Source: an uncultured Anaerolineales bacterium
Lineage (GTDB): Bacteria > Chloroflexota > Anaerolineae > Aggregatilineales > Aggregatilineaceae
DNA: 47,869 nt
Direction of reading: 5' to 3'
Assembly: GCA_937135955.1 (NCBI GenBank)
Contig: CAKZOB010000065.1
Coordinates: forward strand, 73,818-121,686
Shown in pieces: positions 27,872 through 45,111 of the stretch (the stretch's first letter is position 1; each line of letters begins with the position of its first letter). Both the position numbers and the translations under genes were made by a program. The notes below the pieces were generated by a model. It was not told the origin of the DNA and made no database searches. It saw only the letters and a program-made list of their open reading frames with translations.

Positions 27872-28933
27872 CTACAGCTCGTCTTGGGGCAGAGTGGACG
27901 GGAAGGCCACTCCCTCACCGGTGACGTGTACCCCTACCACCTGGCCGGTCTGCCAGCGCGCGCCCGCTCCGCAGAGCACTTTGAGCACTGCCGCCTCTTC
28001 CGCCAGCTTTACCCAGACGACCTGCCGCGCTCCCAGGTACATTTGCCCGCTGACGATCGCCCGTGTGCCGTTCTCCGCCCCATCCAGGGTCAGCACTTCG
28101 GGGCGGAGCAGCACGTCTACTGCTCCCTGCGCGGGCTGCGCCAGGGCGACCGTCCCCAGGATCGTATGGGCTACGCTCCCCTGGGCCTGGCCGCTGACGA
28201 AGTTGGAGTCGCCCATGAACTGCGCAGCGCGGCGCGAGACAGGGTGCTCGTAAAGATCGCGCGGGGTGCCGATCTGATGCAGCGCCCCATCGAACATCAG
28301 CGCGATGCGGTCGCCCAGGCTCATGGCTTCCTCCTGATCGTGCGTCACCAGGATGGCCGAGACGCCCGCCTGGCGCAGGATGCGTTGCACCTCCTCGCGC
28401 ACCTGACGGCGCAGCGCCACGTCCAGGTTGGAAAATGGCTCGTCCAGCAGCAGGATGTCGGGTTGGGGGGCAAGGGCGCGCGCCAGGGCTACCCGCTGTT
28501 GCTGCCCACCGGAAAGCTCGTGCGGGTAGCGCTCCTCCAGCCCTTCCAGACCCACCAGGGCCAGCATGGCCGCTACGCGCTCCCTGCGGTCTGATCGCCG
28601 CCCCAGCCCATAGGCGACGTTCTGCGCGACGGTCATATGAGAGAACAGCGCGTAGTCCTGGAAGACCAGCCCCACGTGCCGCCGATGGGCAGGCTCGAAG
28701 ACACGCCCATCGCTGACCGTGCGCCCGTTAATGACGATCGCGCCACCGTCGGGCCGCTCCAGACCAGCGATCAGGCGCAGCACAGTAGTCTTGCCGCAGC
28801 CGCTCGGCCCCAGCAAGGCCAGGCATTCGCCGCGCCGCAACGCCAGCGAAACATTCCGCACGGCCTGCACCGCTCCGAAAGACTTGCGCAGGTCACGACA
28901 GATCACGGTAGATTCAAGGGGCAGCTCAGTCAT
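27872..28933 (-). CDS. fbpC: ferric iron ABC transporter ATP-binding protein
   Basis: A 353-residue ATPase energising uptake through the FbpB permease. Walker A is GPSGCGKTT, Q-loop FQDYALF, signature ELSGGQQQR, Walker B ILLLDEPFSNLD and switch VTHDQEEAM. The C-terminal part (about 245-350) is the regulatory TOBE-like region found in the FbpC/PotA/CysA group. The ATG at 28933 overlaps the permease end by 8 bp, so translation is coupled. Specificity for iron is taken from the FbpA tyrosines two genes upstream. Confidence 0.88.
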   Translation of the reverse strand: MTELPLESTVICRDLRKSFGAVQAVRNVSLALRRGECLALLGPSGCGKTTVLRLIAGLERPDGGAIVINGRTVSDGRVFEPAHRRHVGLVFQDYALFSHMTVAQNVAYGLGRRSDRRERVAAMLALVGLEGLEERYPHELSGGQQQRVALARALAPQPDILLLDEPFSNLDVALRRQVREEVQRILRQAGVSAILVTHDQEEAMSLGDRIALMFDGALHQIGTPRDLYEHPVSRRAAQFMGDSNFVSGQAQGSVAHTILGTVALAQPAQGAVDVLLRPEVLTLDGAENGTRAIVSGQMYLGARQVVWVKLAEEAAVLKVLCGAGARWQTGQVVGVHVTGEGVAFPSTLPQDEL

Positions 28934-30509
28934 CGGACTCCAGGATATAGACCAGCGAGAGCGCGGAGATCAGCACCAGGATCAGGGCGGGCGCAGCGGC
29001 CCGTGCGTAAAAAGCTTCGTTGCTGGCCGACCAGATGCGCGTCGCCAGCGTGGCGTAGCCGGTGGGGGCCAGCAGCAGCGTGATCGGCAGTTCTTTCATA
29101 GTGGTTAGGAATACCAGCGCCACGCCCGCCACCAGACCGGAGCGCATCAGCGGCAGGGTGACGGTGCGCAGAACGGTCAGATAGCCCCGCCCCAGCGTTT
29201 GGGCGACTTCTTCCAGGTGCGGGTTCACCTGCAACAGGCTGGCCCGCGCCGGTCCGAGCGCCTGTGACAGGAAGCGCACGCTGTAGGCCAGCACCAGTAA
29301 CCCCAGGCTGCGGTAACTGTCCAGGCCGAAGAGCGCGTTCAGGTCGCCCAGGTAGCGCGCGCCCAGGAAGACAAAAGCCAACCCCACTACCACGCCTGGC
29401 AGGGCATAGCCCAGATAGGCACTGCGCGCCAGCAGATGAGTCAACGGAGAGGGGGCGCGCACCTGCAGCCACACGAACGGTAGCGCAACAACTCCGCAGA
29501 CAAGCGCGGCCAACGCTGACGCACGTAGCGAGCGCTGCAGCGGCGCGGATACATCGCGCAGTGTCTCGCCCTGCTGCAGGCCATTGACCAGCCAGTAGGT
29601 CATCACGGCGACAGGCATCACCAGCGCCAGAGTCACCACCAGGGCGCAGAAAGCCAGCGCCAGCGGTTGCCAGCGTCCCAGCCGGACGGGGCGGGGTCGG
29701 TAGTGTGCCCGTCGCGAGAAGGTGCGTCCGCGCCCGCGCTCGATCAGGGTGACCACGCCCAGCAGCAGGGCGGTCAGCAACACCAATACCACCGACAGCA
29801 GCGCCGCCAGGTCGAGATCGAGGCTCAGGCGCAGGTAGATCACGCGGGTGAAGACGTTGTATTGCATCATCGCCACCGCGCCGAAGTCGCTGAGAGTATA
29901 CAGCGCTACCAGCAAAGCTCCGGCAGAGATTGACGGCAGCGCCTGACGCAACGTGATCCACCAGAAGGTCTCCAGGCGCGAACGGCCCAGCGTGTACGAA
30001 GCTTCTTCCAACGCCGGATCGATTCCTCGCAGGCCAGCGCGGGTGCTCAGGAAGACGTAAGGATAGGCGAAGAGCGTCAGCGCCAGCCAAGCCCCCCAAA
30101 AACCGTAGATCGAAGGTAGGCGCTCCACCCCCAGCGGCTGCAACCAGCGCTGCAGGATGCCCTGTTGTCCCAGCGCACCGATCAGCGCGAAGGCCCCCAC
30201 GTAGGAGGGGATGACAAGCGGCACGGTCAGCAGCACCGTCCACAGGCGGCGCGCTTTCAGGTCGCTGCGCACAGTCAACCAGGCGGCGGGCACCGCGATC
30301 AGGCACGCCGAGATTGACACCGCCACCACCAGTAACAGGCTGCGCCCAATGATGCGCAGCGTGCCAGGACGGGTGAGAATGGTGAAGGCGCGCTCCGGCG
30401 CGACCTCTGCCGCGCGGACGAATAGATAGCCCACCGGCAACAACACCAGGGCTGCCAGGGGCAGGGTCACCCCCAGCAGCCACCAGGCAAAACGGCGTTG
30501 GGATATCAC
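28926..30509 (-). CDS. fbpB: ferric iron ABC transporter permease (fused double permease)
   Basis: A 527-residue membrane protein with about twelve helices, made of two permease halves in tandem, as is usual for FbpB. Each half carries an EAA-type loop contacting the ATPase, around PALEEASYTLGRSRLETFW and PHLEEVAQTLGRGYLTVL. The GTG at 30509 is chosen because GGAG lies 10 bp before it. An in-frame GTG at 30545 has no ribosome site. A strong hairpin separates it from fbpA. A second long open frame inside the same stretch is a shadow. Confidence 0.87.
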   Translation of the reverse strand: MISQRRFAWWLLGVTLPLAALVLLPVGYLFVRAAEVAPERAFTILTRPGTLRIIGRSLLLVVAVSISACLIAVPAAWLTVRSDLKARRLWTVLLTVPLVIPSYVGAFALIGALGQQGILQRWLQPLGVERLPSIYGFWGAWLALTLFAYPYVFLSTRAGLRGIDPALEEASYTLGRSRLETFWWITLRQALPSISAGALLVALYTLSDFGAVAMMQYNVFTRVIYLRLSLDLDLAALLSVVLVLLTALLLGVVTLIERGRGRTFSRRAHYRPRPVRLGRWQPLALAFCALVVTLALVMPVAVMTYWLVNGLQQGETLRDVSAPLQRSLRASALAALVCGVVALPFVWLQVRAPSPLTHLLARSAYLGYALPGVVVGLAFVFLGARYLGDLNALFGLDSYRSLGLLVLAYSVRFLSQALGPARASLLQVNPHLEEVAQTLGRGYLTVLRTVTLPLMRSGLVAGVALVFLTTMKELPITLLLAPTGYATLATRIWSASNEAFYARAAAPALILVLISALSLVYILESDD

Positions 30510-30562
30510 GGCAAGGGATACTCCGGTTTGTACCCTATCCAACACAGGCTCAGGTCAGCAAG

Positions 30563-40036: not shown

Positions 40037-41110
40037 ATGGCAGGATACCTATTACGACGCCTGACCCTGGCCATTCCGGTGCTGTTGGGCATCCTGTTCG
40101 TCACCTTTTCGCTGGCGCGCCTGCTCCCCGGCGACCCCTGCCATTCAGCGCTAGGAGAGAAAGCGACGCCGGAGATTTGCGCGGCCTTCAACGAGCGCTA
40201 CGGCCTCAACGACCCCATTCCGGAGCAATTTCGCATCTATCTGCGCGATGTGCTGCGCGGCGACCTGGGCAACTCGATCAAATTCGGTCGCCCGGTCACC
40301 GAGTTGATGGTCGAGCGCCTGCCGGTGACGCTCGAACTGAGTTTCTTCGCCATGACCTTCGCCGTGCTGATCGGTATCCCGTTGGGCATCGTCTCGGCCT
40401 ACTATCACAATTCCGCCATAGATGTGGGGACGATGATCTGGGCCAACATCGGCGTTTCGATGCCGGTGTTCTGGCTGGGCCTGATGCTGTCGTATCTCTT
40501 TGGCGTGGCGCTCAAGGACACCCCCTTTTGGTTGCCGCCCACCGGTCGCCTGACAGCGGGGCGCATCATCGAGCCGTTCTATCAGGCATGGGGGTTGGAT
40601 GTAGACGGCAGCGCGCTGACCCTGCCCGGCTTCATCGCCAACATCAACACGCTCAACGCCTTGCTGGTGCGCGACTGGGCCGGTTTCTGGGATGCGCTCA
40701 AGCATATGATCCTGCCAGCGATGGCCCTGGGCACTATTCCGCTCTCGATCATCGCCCGCATGACACGCTCAAGCTTGCTGGAAGTGCTGGGGCTGAACTA
40801 TGTGCGCACGGCGCGGGCCAAAGGCGTGCACGAACTCAGCGTAGTGGTGCGGCATGGCCTGCGCAACGCCCTGCTGCCCGTGGTGACGATCATCGGGCTG
40901 TCGCTGGGATCGTTGATGAGTGGGGCGGTGCTCACCGAGACGGTCTTTGGCCTGTCGGGAGTGGGCCGCATCCTCTACGACTCGATCACGGGCCGCGATT
41001 ACACGGTCGTACAGGGCTTCACCCTGGTCATCGCGGTGATGTTCGTCTTCATCAACCTGATCGTGGACACGCTCTATGCCTACCTCGACCCGCGTATCCG
41101 CCTTGAGTAG
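40037..41110 (+). CDS. dppB: peptide/nickel-type ABC transporter permease DppB
   Basis: A 357-residue inner membrane permease with six helices, starting MAGYLLRRLTLAIPVLLGIL. Typical motifs are ARLLPGDP in the first external loop, RYGLNDPIPEQF, GDLGNSI, and the EAA loop LGLNYVRTARAKGVHELSVV. It pairs with the DppC-type permease next to it. The external loop between helices 4 and 5 is longer than usual (about residues 175-225). The ATG at 40037 follows GAGG. It begins the operon dppB-dppC-dppD-dppF. No binding-protein gene lies upstream. Confidence 0.88.
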   Translation: MAGYLLRRLTLAIPVLLGILFVTFSLARLLPGDPCHSALGEKATPEICAAFNERYGLNDPIPEQFRIYLRDVLRGDLGNSIKFGRPVTELMVERLPVTLELSFFAMTFAVLIGIPLGIVSAYYHNSAIDVGTMIWANIGVSMPVFWLGLMLSYLFGVALKDTPFWLPPTGRLTAGRIIEPFYQAWGLDVDGSALTLPGFIANINTLNALLVRDWAGFWDALKHMILPAMALGTIPLSIIARMTRSSLLEVLGLNYVRTARAKGVHELSVVVRHGLRNALLPVVTIIGLSLGSLMSGAVLTETVFGLSGVGRILYDSITGRDYTVVQGFTLVIAVMFVFINLIVDTLYAYLDPRIRLE

Positions 41111-41115
41111 AGACC

Positions 41116-43047
41116 ATGCACAGCACAGAACCTGCCCCATCTGATCTTGATCTCAGAGCAGCGGATGTCGTTGCCATCACCAAGCCGCCCAAAAGCCTGT
41201 GGCGTGAGACGATCGAACGGCTGCTGCGCAAGCCGTCCGCCCTGGTCGGGCTGACCATCCTCAGCATTCTGGTCTTCATTGCTATCTTCGCGCCTTTGAT
41301 CGCCACGCACGACCCGCTGGCCGTCTTGCTCGATGTGCCGGAAGAGGGCGTCGCCAAGCGCGATGCGCCGTGCATTCATCTCTTCGGCTGCCCCGGCGCG
41401 GGCGACGTGTTGGTGAAGGCTGCGCCCGCCGAGCCTATTGCTGTGGCTGCGCTCAGCTCCACCAATTCGTTGATGGCAGCAGCGCACGGCAAGACGATTA
41501 GCATCTGGAATGCCAGCAACGGCAAGCTGATGATGACCCTGGAGCATGACAGGCCGGTGACCGCCCTGGACTGGAGTCCCAACGACCAGAAAATTCTGGC
41601 GGCGAGCGGCGAAGAACTCTACGTGTGGGATGTCAACCGGCGGGCGCTCAGCCGCACCCTGGAACACGAGGGTGGGGCTACCCTGGTGCGCTGGAATGCC
41701 GACGGCACCCGCTTCCTGAGCGCTGATGCGCACGTTGTCCGCCTGTGGGATACGCTGTCGTGGACGCTGGTTGCCGCTATCGAGTCGCCGGAGCCGCTGC
41801 TGGCCGTGCAGTGGAATTCCAACGGCACCCTGGTGCTGACCGCCAGCGGCAACGAGGCCAAATTGTGGAACGCTTTCGTTGGCACAGAAGTCACCACGCT
41901 CGCTCACGACGTGCCCTTGACCAGTGCCAGCTTCAACAAGGCCACCAACCGCATCCTGACCACCAGCGGCGACAAGCTGTACATCTGGAACGCTTCTACC
42001 TTTCAGCGCGAGCTGACCATTGATCATGTGGGAACCCTGGCCAATGGCACCTGGAGCGAGGCCATCTCGCGCGGCATTCAGAACGTCATGGCCAGCGACG
42101 GCGACACAGCCTACGTGTGGCGCGTGGCCACGGGCGAGCGGGTGCTGTCCCTGGAGCACGGCGAACCGATCGTACAGATGGGCGGCAGCCCCCTGGCGAC
42201 GCGTATCTTCACGCGGGGGCAGCACACTGTCAAGGTGTGGGATGCCAAAAGCGGCGACCGCGTGTTGACCATCGAACGCGACGCGCCCATCCTACAGGTA
42301 GCCTGGCAGAACAGCGGCGGCGGGGTGTTGGTGGCCACTACTGAAGAGATCAGTGTGGTCAAAACGTCTGACTATCAGTACCTGATGGGCATAGACGGCA
42401 ACCTGCGCGATCAGTTCAGCCGTGTGATCTACGGGACGCGGCTCTCGCTGATAGTGGGCCTGACGACCGTCACCCTGGCGGTGATCATCGGCACCATCAG
42501 CGGGGCAGTGGCCGGCTATGTGGGGGGCTGGGTGGACAACGTGATCATGCGCATCATGGACGTGCTGCTGGCCTTCCCCCCGCTGATCCTGGCCATTGCG
42601 GTGGTGACGGTGCTGGGGCCGGGGCTGATCAACGCCCTGCTCGCCATCTCAATTGTCTTCATTCCGGCCTATGCCCGTGTGGCGCGGTCGGGGGTGCTGG
42701 CGGTCAAGGAAGAAGACTTCGTCACGGCGGATCGGGTGTTGGGGGTGAGCCATGCGCGCATCCTGTTCCGGCGCATCATGCCCAATGCGCTGGCCCCGCT
42801 GATCGTCCAGGCGACGCTGGGCATTGGCACGGCCATCCTGGATGCGGCGGCGCTATCGTTTCTGGGGCTGGGGGCGCAACCGCCCACGCCTGAATGGGGC
42901 GCGATGCTCGGCGCGGAGCGCAATCAGGTTTTCACCGCGCCGCATCTGGTTTTCTACCCCGGCATTGCCATTATGATCACGGTGCTGGCGTTCAATCTGC
43001 TTGGCGACGGGCTGCGCGACGCGCTCGACCCGCGCCTGGATCGTTGA
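41116..43047 (+). CDS. dppC: DppC-type ABC permease with an inserted WD40-like beta-propeller
   Basis: A 643-residue fusion; an ordinary DppC has about 300. Residues 1-39 and helix 1 (42-62) are a normal DppC N-terminus. Residues 98-413 then form eight units of about 40 residues with the strand motif ending in W: Trp131, 171, 211, 251, 291, 335 and 375, while the eighth ends SVVKTS. Phrases such as SIWNASNGKLMMTLEHD recur. The permease resumes at 424 with GIDGNLRDQFSRVIYG, corresponding to the usual GTDxxGRDxxSRxIYG, then five helices and the EAA loop TADRVLGVSHARILF. By the positive-inside rule the propeller lies outside the cytoplasm. It starts 5 bp after dppB and is in frame throughout. 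Confidence 0.9.
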   Translation: MHSTEPAPSDLDLRAADVVAITKPPKSLWRETIERLLRKPSALVGLTILSILVFIAIFAPLIATHDPLAVLLDVPEEGVAKRDAPCIHLFGCPGAGDVLVKAAPAEPIAVAALSSTNSLMAAAHGKTISIWNASNGKLMMTLEHDRPVTALDWSPNDQKILAASGEELYVWDVNRRALSRTLEHEGGATLVRWNADGTRFLSADAHVVRLWDTLSWTLVAAIESPEPLLAVQWNSNGTLVLTASGNEAKLWNAFVGTEVTTLAHDVPLTSASFNKATNRILTTSGDKLYIWNASTFQRELTIDHVGTLANGTWSEAISRGIQNVMASDGDTAYVWRVATGERVLSLEHGEPIVQMGGSPLATRIFTRGQHTVKVWDAKSGDRVLTIERDAPILQVAWQNSGGGVLVATTEEISVVKTSDYQYLMGIDGNLRDQFSRVIYGTRLSLIVGLTTVTLAVIIGTISGAVAGYVGGWVDNVIMRIMDVLLAFPPLILAIAVVTVLGPGLINALLAISIVFIPAYARVARSGVLAVKEEDFVTADRVLGVSHARILFRRIMPNALAPLIVQATLGIGTAILDAAALSFLGLGAQPPTPEWGAMLGAERNQVFTAPHLVFYPGIAIMITVLAFNLLGDGLRDALDPRLDR

Positions 43048-43069: not shown

Positions 43070-44098
43070 ATGGCAGACAGGACTGGTGATAACGGCAAAC
43101 CTCCGGCAGAGGAGCTGCCTCTTCTGCAAGTTAAAGACCTCAAGACCTATTTCTTCACGCGCCGGGGCATCGTCAAGGCGGTGGATGGCGTCAGCCTGAC
43201 CGTCCGGCGCGGCGAAATTCGCGGTGTGGTGGGGGAATCTGGCTGTGGCAAGAGCATGACGGCCATGTCCATCCTGCAACTGGTGGACAAGCCGGGCCGC
43301 ATCGTCTCCGGCGAGGTGTGGTTCAAGGGCGAGAACCTGCTGGCCAGGTCGCGCCGCGAGATGACCGCCATCCGCGGCAAACAGATCGCAGTGATCTTCC
43401 AGGAACCCAAGTCGTCGCTCAACCCCGTGCTGAAAGTGAGCACACAGTTGTTGGAAGTGCTCAAAGTGCACCAGGATGTCGGGCGTCTGCCGCGCACAGA
43501 AGAGGCGGTGAAGATGCTCAAAGAAGTGGGCATCCCCGACCCCGAACGGCGCATTCACAACTACCCGCACGAACTATCGGGAGGCATGGCGCAGCGCGTG
43601 ATGATCGCCATGGGTATGGCCTGTGCGCCCGACCTGCTCATCGCCGACGAGCCGACGACCGCCCTTGATGTCACCATTCAGGCGCAGGTGCTCGACCTGA
43701 TCCGCACTCTGCGCAACGAGCGTGGCATGGCGGTGATGCTGATCACGCACGCCATGGGTGTGGTGGCGGAGATGGCCGATGTGGTGACGGTGATGTACGC
43801 CGGCACCGCCGTCGAGGAAGCGCCCACCCTCAACCTGTTCGATGAGCCGTTGCACCCCTACACGCGCGGCCTGATCGCCTCCATTCCGGTGATGGGGCAG
43901 CGCAAAGAACGACTGGAGGTGATTCCGGGGCGCGTGCCCAACCTGATTGACATGCCGCCCGGCTGTCGCTTTGCCCCGCGTTGTCGGGCGCGGGTCGAAC
44001 ATGGGCTGGAGAAGTGCACCGTCGAAGAGCCGCCCATGATCGAGGCCAGACCGGGGCATCTGGTGCGCTGCTGGCTCTACGAAGGCGATCAACGATGA
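43070..44098 (+). CDS. dppD: peptide/nickel-type ABC transporter ATPase DppD
   Basis: A 342-residue ATPase: Walker A GESGCGKS, signature ELSGGMAQR, Walker [13 protein letters not shown] and switch His in ITHAMG. The C-terminal oligopeptide/HPY domain begins PLHPYTRGL and holds a cluster of four cysteines (CRFAPRC, then KC, and C before W) as in other OppD/DppD proteins. The ATG at 43070 follows GGAGGGG after 13 bp. It starts 22 bp after dppC and overlaps dppF by 4 bp. Confidence 0.9.
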
Positions 44099-45111
44099 GC
44101 ACGACCGACAATCTGGTAGAAATTCGCGGGCTGAAAGTCCATTTCCCCGTCCGGGCGGGCATCCTCAAGCGCACGGTCGGCGTGGTCAAAGCTGTGGATG
44201 GCGTAGACCTGGACATCCGGCGCGGCGAGATTCTGGGCCTGGTGGGCGAATCCGGCTGCGGCAAGACGACGGTGGGCCGCGCCATCCTGCGTCTGATTCC
44301 GGCGACGGCAGGCACGGTGCGCTTCGACGGCAAAGACCTGTTCTCGCTCAAGCCGTCCGAACTCAAGCCGCTGCGCCGCGAGATGCAACTGGTGTTCCAG
44401 GACCCCTATTCGTCGCTCGACCCGCGCTCCAAGGTGGGCGACATCGTGGGCGAGGGGTTACGTGTGCATGGCGTAACCGACCGCCAGGAGCGGCACGAGC
44501 GCGTGCGTAAGGCGCTGGAGATGGTCGGGCTGCAAGAAGAGCACATGCGCCGTTTCCCGCACGAATTCTCCGGCGGGCAGCGGCAACGCATCGGCATCGC
44601 GCGCGCTCTGGTGCTCAACCCCAAGTTCATCGTGTGCGACGAGCCGGTGTCGGCGCTGGATGTGTCCATTCAGTCGCAGGTGCTCAACCTGCTCAAAGAC
44701 CTGCAGCAAGAACTTGATCTGACCCTGCTGTTCATCGCGCACGACATGAGCGTGGTCGAGCACCTGTGCGACCGCGTGGCGGTGATGTACCTGGGCAAGA
44801 TTGTCGAGGTCGCCGAGCGCGACGAGCTGTTCCGCAACCCGCAGCACCCCTACACGCGAGCGCTGATGTCGGCTATCCCTGTGGCCGATCCTCGCGCCAA
44901 GCGCGAGCGCATCATCTTGCAGGGCGACCCACCCAGCCCATTGCGCCCGCCGTCGGGCTGCCGTTTTCACACGCGCTGTCCCGAAGCCACCGAGTTGTGC
45001 GCGCAGCGCGAACCAGCGCTCATTGACCTGGGGCGGGCGCACCTGTGCGCCTGCCATTTGCGGCAGCCCGAAGGGCAGGTAGCTGAGAGCGTGGCCCGCG
45101 TGGGCGGGTGA
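44095..45111 (+). CDS. dppF: peptide/nickel-type ABC transporter ATPase DppF
   Basis: A 338-residue second ATPase: Walker [10 protein letters not shown], signature EFSGGQRQR, Walker [13 protein letters not shown] and switch IAHDMS. The C-terminal domain has PQHPYTRAL and cysteines in CRFHTRC and beyond. The ATG at 44095 overlaps the dppD stop (ATGA). The signature [16 protein letters not shown] (within the ABC domain) marks it as the DppF partner. It converges with the PI-PLC-like gene, with only 13 bp between the stops and no terminator visible. Confidence 0.9.

Follow-up and report, generated by a model that had tools for sequence, protein, structure and literature searches.

A DppC-like importer permease from Anaerolineae with a predicted eight-bladed WD40 propeller inserted before its translocator core

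In the usual view of type I ABC importers, small loops of the permeases make contact with a separate substrate-binding protein (SBP). For the DppABCDF complex of Escherichia coli, the region between TM1 and TM2 of DppC is described as periplasmic, and DppA is described as a cap over the outer face of DppB and DppC, with a scoop motif contributed by DppB (PMC12136057). Extracytoplasmic parts have been described in other importers. The P2 part of the permease MalF moves around docked MalE in simulations (PMC8134467), and in GlnPQ and OpuA the importer itself includes additional binding modules outside the cell (PMC8025302, PMC11065425).

Here we describe a DppC-like permease that contains a WD40 propeller and that represents a genuine, conserved variant of the Dpp/Opp-type (type I) ABC peptide importer. 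It is encoded in a 47,869-nucleotide stretch of DNA from an uncultured Anaerolineales bacterium, the whole of which is referred to below as the window. Computation directly established the domain arrangement, how far it is conserved and under selection, its predicted fold, and its co-occurrence within the family with a circularly permuted, DppA-like SBP. In the titles and abstract openings that made up most of the literature searched, with subscription papers mostly outside it, we recognised no report of a propeller within DppC and none of a permuted family-5 SBP. A term search of the main text of a survey of prokaryotic WD40 proteins found neither "permease" nor "transporter" (PMC5587647).

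The permease gene and its propeller

The gene occupies positions 41116..43047 of the forward strand as a single open frame of 643 codons and a stop codon, exactly the uninterrupted frame claimed in an earlier note on this DNA. Pfam identified OppC_N at residues 27–67 (45.4 bits versus a cut-off of 23.9; 41194..41316, forward strand, including TM1), WD40 (67.1 bits versus 27) and BPD_transp_1 at residues 459–642 (119.8 bits versus 26.4). On these Pfam matches the protein is a member of the DppC/OppC permease family of type I ABC importers. Its translocator core (residues 417–643; 42364..43044, forward strand) shares about 50% identity with E. coli DppC, with a phmmer match to 8z1v_B over residues 421–642 (E=4.2e-72) and, for a full-length structure model, a Foldseek match to 8z1w_B (TMt 0.76, 50% identity). 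Given that the whole protein scored 281.1 bits, below the NCBIfam DppC equivalog (PRK10913) cut-off of 483 bits, we did not assign dipeptide specificity. Among the matches listed, the core's closest named relatives belong to Chloroflexota, including several named Anaerolineae. The GTDxxGRD-like motif that had been noted at the start of the core is present as GIDGNLRD, and not as originally written.

The partners encoded with the propeller permease are DppB-, DppD- and DppF-like. A dppB-like permease gene (40037..41110, forward strand, 357 residues; Pfam BPD_transp_1 and BPD_transp_1_N), whose start was picked by agreement with relatives, is separated from the propeller-bearing gene by five bases. 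Downstream are a dppD-like ATPase gene (43070..44098, forward strand, 342 residues), whose start was set by agreement with genome G001, and a dppF-like ATPase gene (44095..45111, forward strand, 338 residues), which overlaps the dppD-like stop and whose start is a proposal of this analysis; both matched Pfam ABC_tran and oligo_HPY. Elsewhere in the window, a single reverse-strand frame at 28926-30545 contains two BPD_transp_1 matches (about 28956-29462 and 29736-30296) and for that reason resembles a fused double permease.

The insert comprises 323 residues (94–416, give or take a few; 41395..42363, forward strand) between FGCP (residues 90–93) and TSDYQYLMGIDGN (residues 417–429). These borders were read from the permease rows of an alignment with insert-less homologues; the WD40 rows of the same alignment were misplaced over the permease core, and the alignment was excluded from folding. 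The tryptophans reported for the repeats, at residues 131, 171, 211, 251, 291, 335 and 375, are all exact in the translated frame, and an eighth unit (ISVVKT, about residues 411–416) has none. Seven 27-residue blade segments, selected by their tryptophan, showed a mean identity of 26.6%; when the insert was shuffled 2000 times, 26-residue segments never reached this value (mean 7.2%, maximum 19.8%).

We modeled residues 88–423 with AlphaFold2 on the basis of 12 WD40 rows from four loci, the source of these rows being a scan of viral contigs with a WD40 alignment that yielded eight WD40 loci; viral contigs gave no matches when scanned with the insert or with a single WD40 protein. The model (mean pLDDT 82.5, pTM 0.80) contains 32 strands, fitting eight four-stranded blades provided that the NH2-terminal strand completes blade 8. 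Such a strand is present at model residues 11–14, within a segment (residues 1–19) of pLDDT under 50; for blade 8, the closing strand is below 50 and the remainder at about 64–65. The best Foldseek match of the insert model in the PDB was ODA16 (TMq 0.84), with TBL1XR1 at 0.82 and Tako8 at 0.78, and VIA-align Z scores were 37.8, 34.5 and 32.3, respectively. Tako8 is named as eight-bladed in the title of its structure, and ODA16 and TBL1XR1 are eight-bladed as well. The seven-bladed WDR5 ranked second by Foldseek E-value but gave a TMq of 0.61–0.62 and a Z score of 24.6–24.7. A second AlphaFold2 model, of the full-length protein, was built with 16 insert-less permease rows and with no homologue over the insert; although made without any WD40 row, it still matched Tako8 (TMt 0.79). 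The orientation of the domains in this model is unreliable, given its pTM of 0.56. By profile and predicted fold, then, the insert is a WD40 propeller, and the strand count and the eight-bladed matches agree with the eight units proposed for it in the earlier note. Two further WD40 proteins are encoded in the same genome, one with a signal-like stretch at its NH2 terminus (L100:643-2172) and one that is large and highly repetitive (L095:913-3702).

Residues 1–39, ahead of TM1, contain seven K or R and six D or E (net +1), and residues 64–96, after TM1, two K or R and five D or E (net –3). The propeller, lying between TM1 and the core, is predicted to occupy the first external loop of DppC, between TM1 and TM2, as had been suggested in the earlier note.

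Distribution, selection and ancestry

A search for the architecture, which had been recommended as a measure of its spread, detected it (E<=1e-70) in 9 of 18 genomes from the family of the window, including two of the five genomes of the window's genus, and in 10 of 154 genomes of the order, the tenth carrier (G031) belonging to another family. For the other 68 genomes of the order that passed 1e-85, the listed match starts at residue 400 or later. The insert was present only in the window's own genome among 52 genomes with a match at 1e-101 in a sample of 396 genomes of the class, and again only there in a sample of 400 genomes of the phylum. Carriers could have been missed at each of these levels: eight candidates were scored per genome for the order, three for an even sample of the class, and up to four for an even sample of the phylum. 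An exact-peptide scan of genome contigs gave at least 80 loci, with no full-length carrier among the 80 listed; this says nothing about rarity, given that the patterns can miss carriers at 70% identity. OppC_N, WD40 (E<=0.001) and BPD_transp_1 were all matched in each of the ten aligned carriers. In search listings the carriers were 53–96% identical to the window protein, one of them (G017) being listed over residues 257–643 only (71%; 62% over the whole alignment). A tenth family genome with a match, G015, has an insert-less protein of 54% identity, which the core tree places well away from the carriers. Another insert-less DppC relative (G079, L173:2275-3903) has about 250 additional, hydrophobic-rich NH2-terminal residues before OppC_N.

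Between the window and a sister species, whose protein is 96% identical at a dS of about 0.4, dN/dS was 0.066 for the propeller (dS 0.41) and 0.005 for the core; at these values the propeller is under purifying selection between the two species. Three comparisons between genera, taken at high dS (1.0–1.6), gave 0.19–0.38 for the propeller and 0.04–0.18 for the core, with the propeller always higher. In six other genera the propeller is 51–56% identical to that of the window and the core 88–92%; identity of the propeller is 44% in G017 and 36% in G031, and with these two included the range for the core becomes 76–92%. The length of the propeller is near constant in 8 of the 10 carriers. Relative to the window's propeller, counted here as 320 residues, eight of the nine other carriers have no gaps and G031 has five, while G005 and G014 each have a single inserted residue and G017 and G031 have longer insertions. 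In G017 (L182:6522-8834) a long acidic, low-complexity insertion lies inside the propeller.

Loops of the bottom face were more conserved than those of the top face (0.62 versus 0.47; permutation p 0.007), with most of the excess in the a-b turns; c-d loops alone scored 0.51, versus 0.49 for the d-a loops of the top. Given that a-b turns, which are structurally conserved across WD40 proteins generally, dominate the difference, this comparison is ambiguous as a test for a binding face. Blades 2–4 are the most conserved (0.63–0.67). Among residues of the c-d loops, W216 and R176 are invariant in all ten carriers, and F254 is invariant in the seven rows compared.

A tree of 21 genomes from concatenated SBP, DppB and DppC core sequences separated the 10 carriers from the 11 non-carriers (100/100); in an AU comparison on it, the constrained and free trees had the same likelihood, with nothing to separate. 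In a core-only tree of 153 rows, the nine family carriers form a clade (99), the insert-less G185 and G217 stand beside them, and G031 lies apart, so that this tree does not show a single origin. A single insertion of the propeller is the simplest reading, not a proven one, and G031 may have obtained its propeller either by descent or by transfer.

The permuted substrate-binding protein

The earlier note had stated that the operon contains no binding-protein gene. This holds for the window, where none adjoins the operon, and also for G001; such a protein is nevertheless encoded at another site of the window's genome, and in 8 of the 10 carriers a family-5 SBP gene stands immediately ahead of dppB. 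The orthologous SBP gene of the window's genome (L187:4985-6640, contig C70) is located well inside a contig of 38,995 bases, and that of G001 (L188) lies on a separate contig of 5,468 bases. Within the fetched stretches around both genes, no match to the B, C, D or F proteins of the operon was detected. Among the 18 family genomes, the SBP (E<=1e-100) was found in nine, exactly the nine propeller carriers, and in none of the nine non-carriers. This is a plain, uncorrected count in genomes that are related and in part incomplete. Given that both occur in the same nine genomes, propeller and SBP appear to have been kept or lost together, even where unlinked. We infer that the unlinked family-5 SBP in the window's genome serves the propeller permease.

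Compared with heme-binding protein A (3m8u), the SBP has its parts in swapped order: residues 52–421 of the query correspond to residues 128–502 of the chain, and residues 437–540 to residues 10–120. DppA entries also match the SBP in two stretches, with figures available for the better stretch only, and the same swap appears in an alignment with four ordinary SBPs of the same genome. On these alignments the DppA-like SBP is circularly permuted, further examples besides L187:4985-6640 being L174:1402-3063 and L181:4891-6534. In all 11 insert-less loci with a sufficiently long SBP, this protein is collinear with the permuted form. Three of these loci have the permuted SBP joined to the end of a further receptor domain: behind Peripla_BP_6 in G217 (by Pfam) and G185 (by near-identical sequence; L189:6187-8517 and L190:6652-8988 for the two), and behind SBP_bac_3 in G408 (L191:6409-8886). 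Contig C41 of the window's genome encodes a second family-5 SBP (L204:2573-4285) that is circularly permuted at a different point, with the part matching AppA 372–490 ahead of that matching 24–348.

A regular-expression search for a lipobox found none in the 10 carrier SBPs. Among insert-less SBPs a lipobox was present in five of nine and absent from four, all of family f6; this count omits L173, L189 and L190, whose SBPs are cut by the fetched stretch or a contig end, and for L191 the motif seen by eye differs from that reported by the search. Lgt was found in all 21 genomes searched, so that lipid anchoring was possible. We also considered loss of the lipid anchor as the driver of the propeller and found it unsupported, given that four of nine insert-less SBPs likewise have no lipobox and that none of the 21 genomes lacks Lgt.

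Possible role and comparison with known systems

We consider the propeller most likely to be an added domain on the cell exterior, for docking or capture, in an importer that otherwise resembles DppABCDF. The chain would enter the propeller ahead of strand d8 and leave it behind c8, and by WD40 convention both points fall on the bottom face, so that the bottom should be turned toward the translocator and the top outward. The propeller would hang by its bottom face, with eight residues between it and the conserved GIDGN segment that precedes TM2, and this face would lie beside the SBP docking site as located for E. coli DppA. In that position it might help, as an auxiliary platform, to recruit or retain an SBP with no recognisable lipobox, or it might instead stabilise the docked SBP complex; its role would then resemble that of MalF P2, and the SBP would not be replaced. 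We consider the chances evenly balanced that the propeller is such a platform on DppC for recruiting or retaining the SBP or stabilising its complex, with the SBP kept. What favours it is the inferred geometry, with the bottom face at the DppA docking side, together with the conservation of the bottom loops, most of which is due to the a-b turns, and the invariance of W216 and R176. The match between SBP and propeller across the 18 family genomes, the place of the SBP gene beside dppB in 8 of 10 carriers, the receptor domains fused to the SBP in insert-less relatives and the lack of a lipobox in all ten carrier SBPs also count in its favour. Against it stand the higher dN/dS of the propeller between genera, the low confidence of blade 8, the unreliable domain orientation of the full-length model and the arrangement of the core-only tree.

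The main rival is an accessory receptor, in which the outward top face would capture something other than the SBP and so supply the importer with substrate or partners; candidate ligands are longer peptides, a peptidase, a protein of the cell surface and material from the wall or S-layer. The inferred geometry, which turns the top outward, suits this explanation, as do the extra receptor domains fused to the SBP in related systems and the variation of the top loops among carriers, which would fit differing ligands, and WD40 propellers commonly bind peptides and proteins. The top loops are less conserved than the bottom ones, however, and thus lend no support to a single shared top ligand, and we regard this receptor as possible but rather unlikely. 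A purely structural role, in which the propeller, as passive lid or spacer, stabilises the loop or shields the entrance and has no specific ligand, would agree with its faster divergence than that of the core in the six other genera; purifying selection on it, its near-constant length in 8 of 10 carriers and the conserved c-d residues W216, R176 and F254 speak against this, and we judge it improbable.

Replacement of the SBP by the propeller as the substrate receptor itself was raised by the operons of the window and G001, with no SBP gene beside them. Given the presence of a cognate SBP in the same genome, in all nine family carriers and in none of the nine non-carriers, as well as its position next to dppB in 8 of 10, the stand-alone receptor envisaged in the earlier note appears very improbable. 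An assembly chimera or pseudogene, a suspicion that the unusual architecture invites, has next to no probability: ten genomes of the order carry the architecture in frame, among them the sister species at 96% identity and a dS of about 0.4, and the assembly fusion suspected earlier is thereby excluded.

If the preferred reading of a docking or stabilising platform applies, the locus suggests that these importers use an extra outer platform to hold or feed the SBP. A selected propeller on the docking face, together with a permuted SBP, would provide a natural test of how much SBP recruitment contributes to transport rate and specificity, and this would be a WD40 domain acting outside the cell within a membrane transporter. 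A more far-reaching proposal is a distinct class of importers, with the propeller and a permuted, anchor-free SBP as a matched pair and the propeller as a docking tower that holds the secreted SBP at the surface of the cell for processive reloading. We put this forward as a doubtful suggestion; if true, the matched-pair tower would be a new solution to SBP retention.

The propellers of ODA16, TBL1XR1 and Tako8 resemble the insert in fold, but they share only about 20% identity with it and are not parts of transporters. The modules of GlnPQ and OpuA are SBP-fold domains that serve instead of a free SBP, whereas the propeller importer adds a WD40 domain and keeps a free SBP. MalF P2, which also lies outside the cytoplasm and belongs to the permease of an ABC importer, would be alike in role; it is not a propeller and belongs to a different loop of a different permease. 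For the SBP, a precedent is TpMglB-2 (Tp0684), described as a circularly permuted ABC binding protein (PMC4990184), which is of the glucose-binding MglB kind and not a family-5 DppA-like protein. The closest system is DppABCDF of E. coli as described (PDB 8z1v-8z1z; PMC12136057), with a core of about 50% identity, the same set of B, C, D and F components, and an SBP of the DppA/HbpA kind in the window's system. Its DppC is a protein of 300 residues with no propeller, and its DppA has the ordinary order of parts, against which that of the SBP in the window's genome is swapped.
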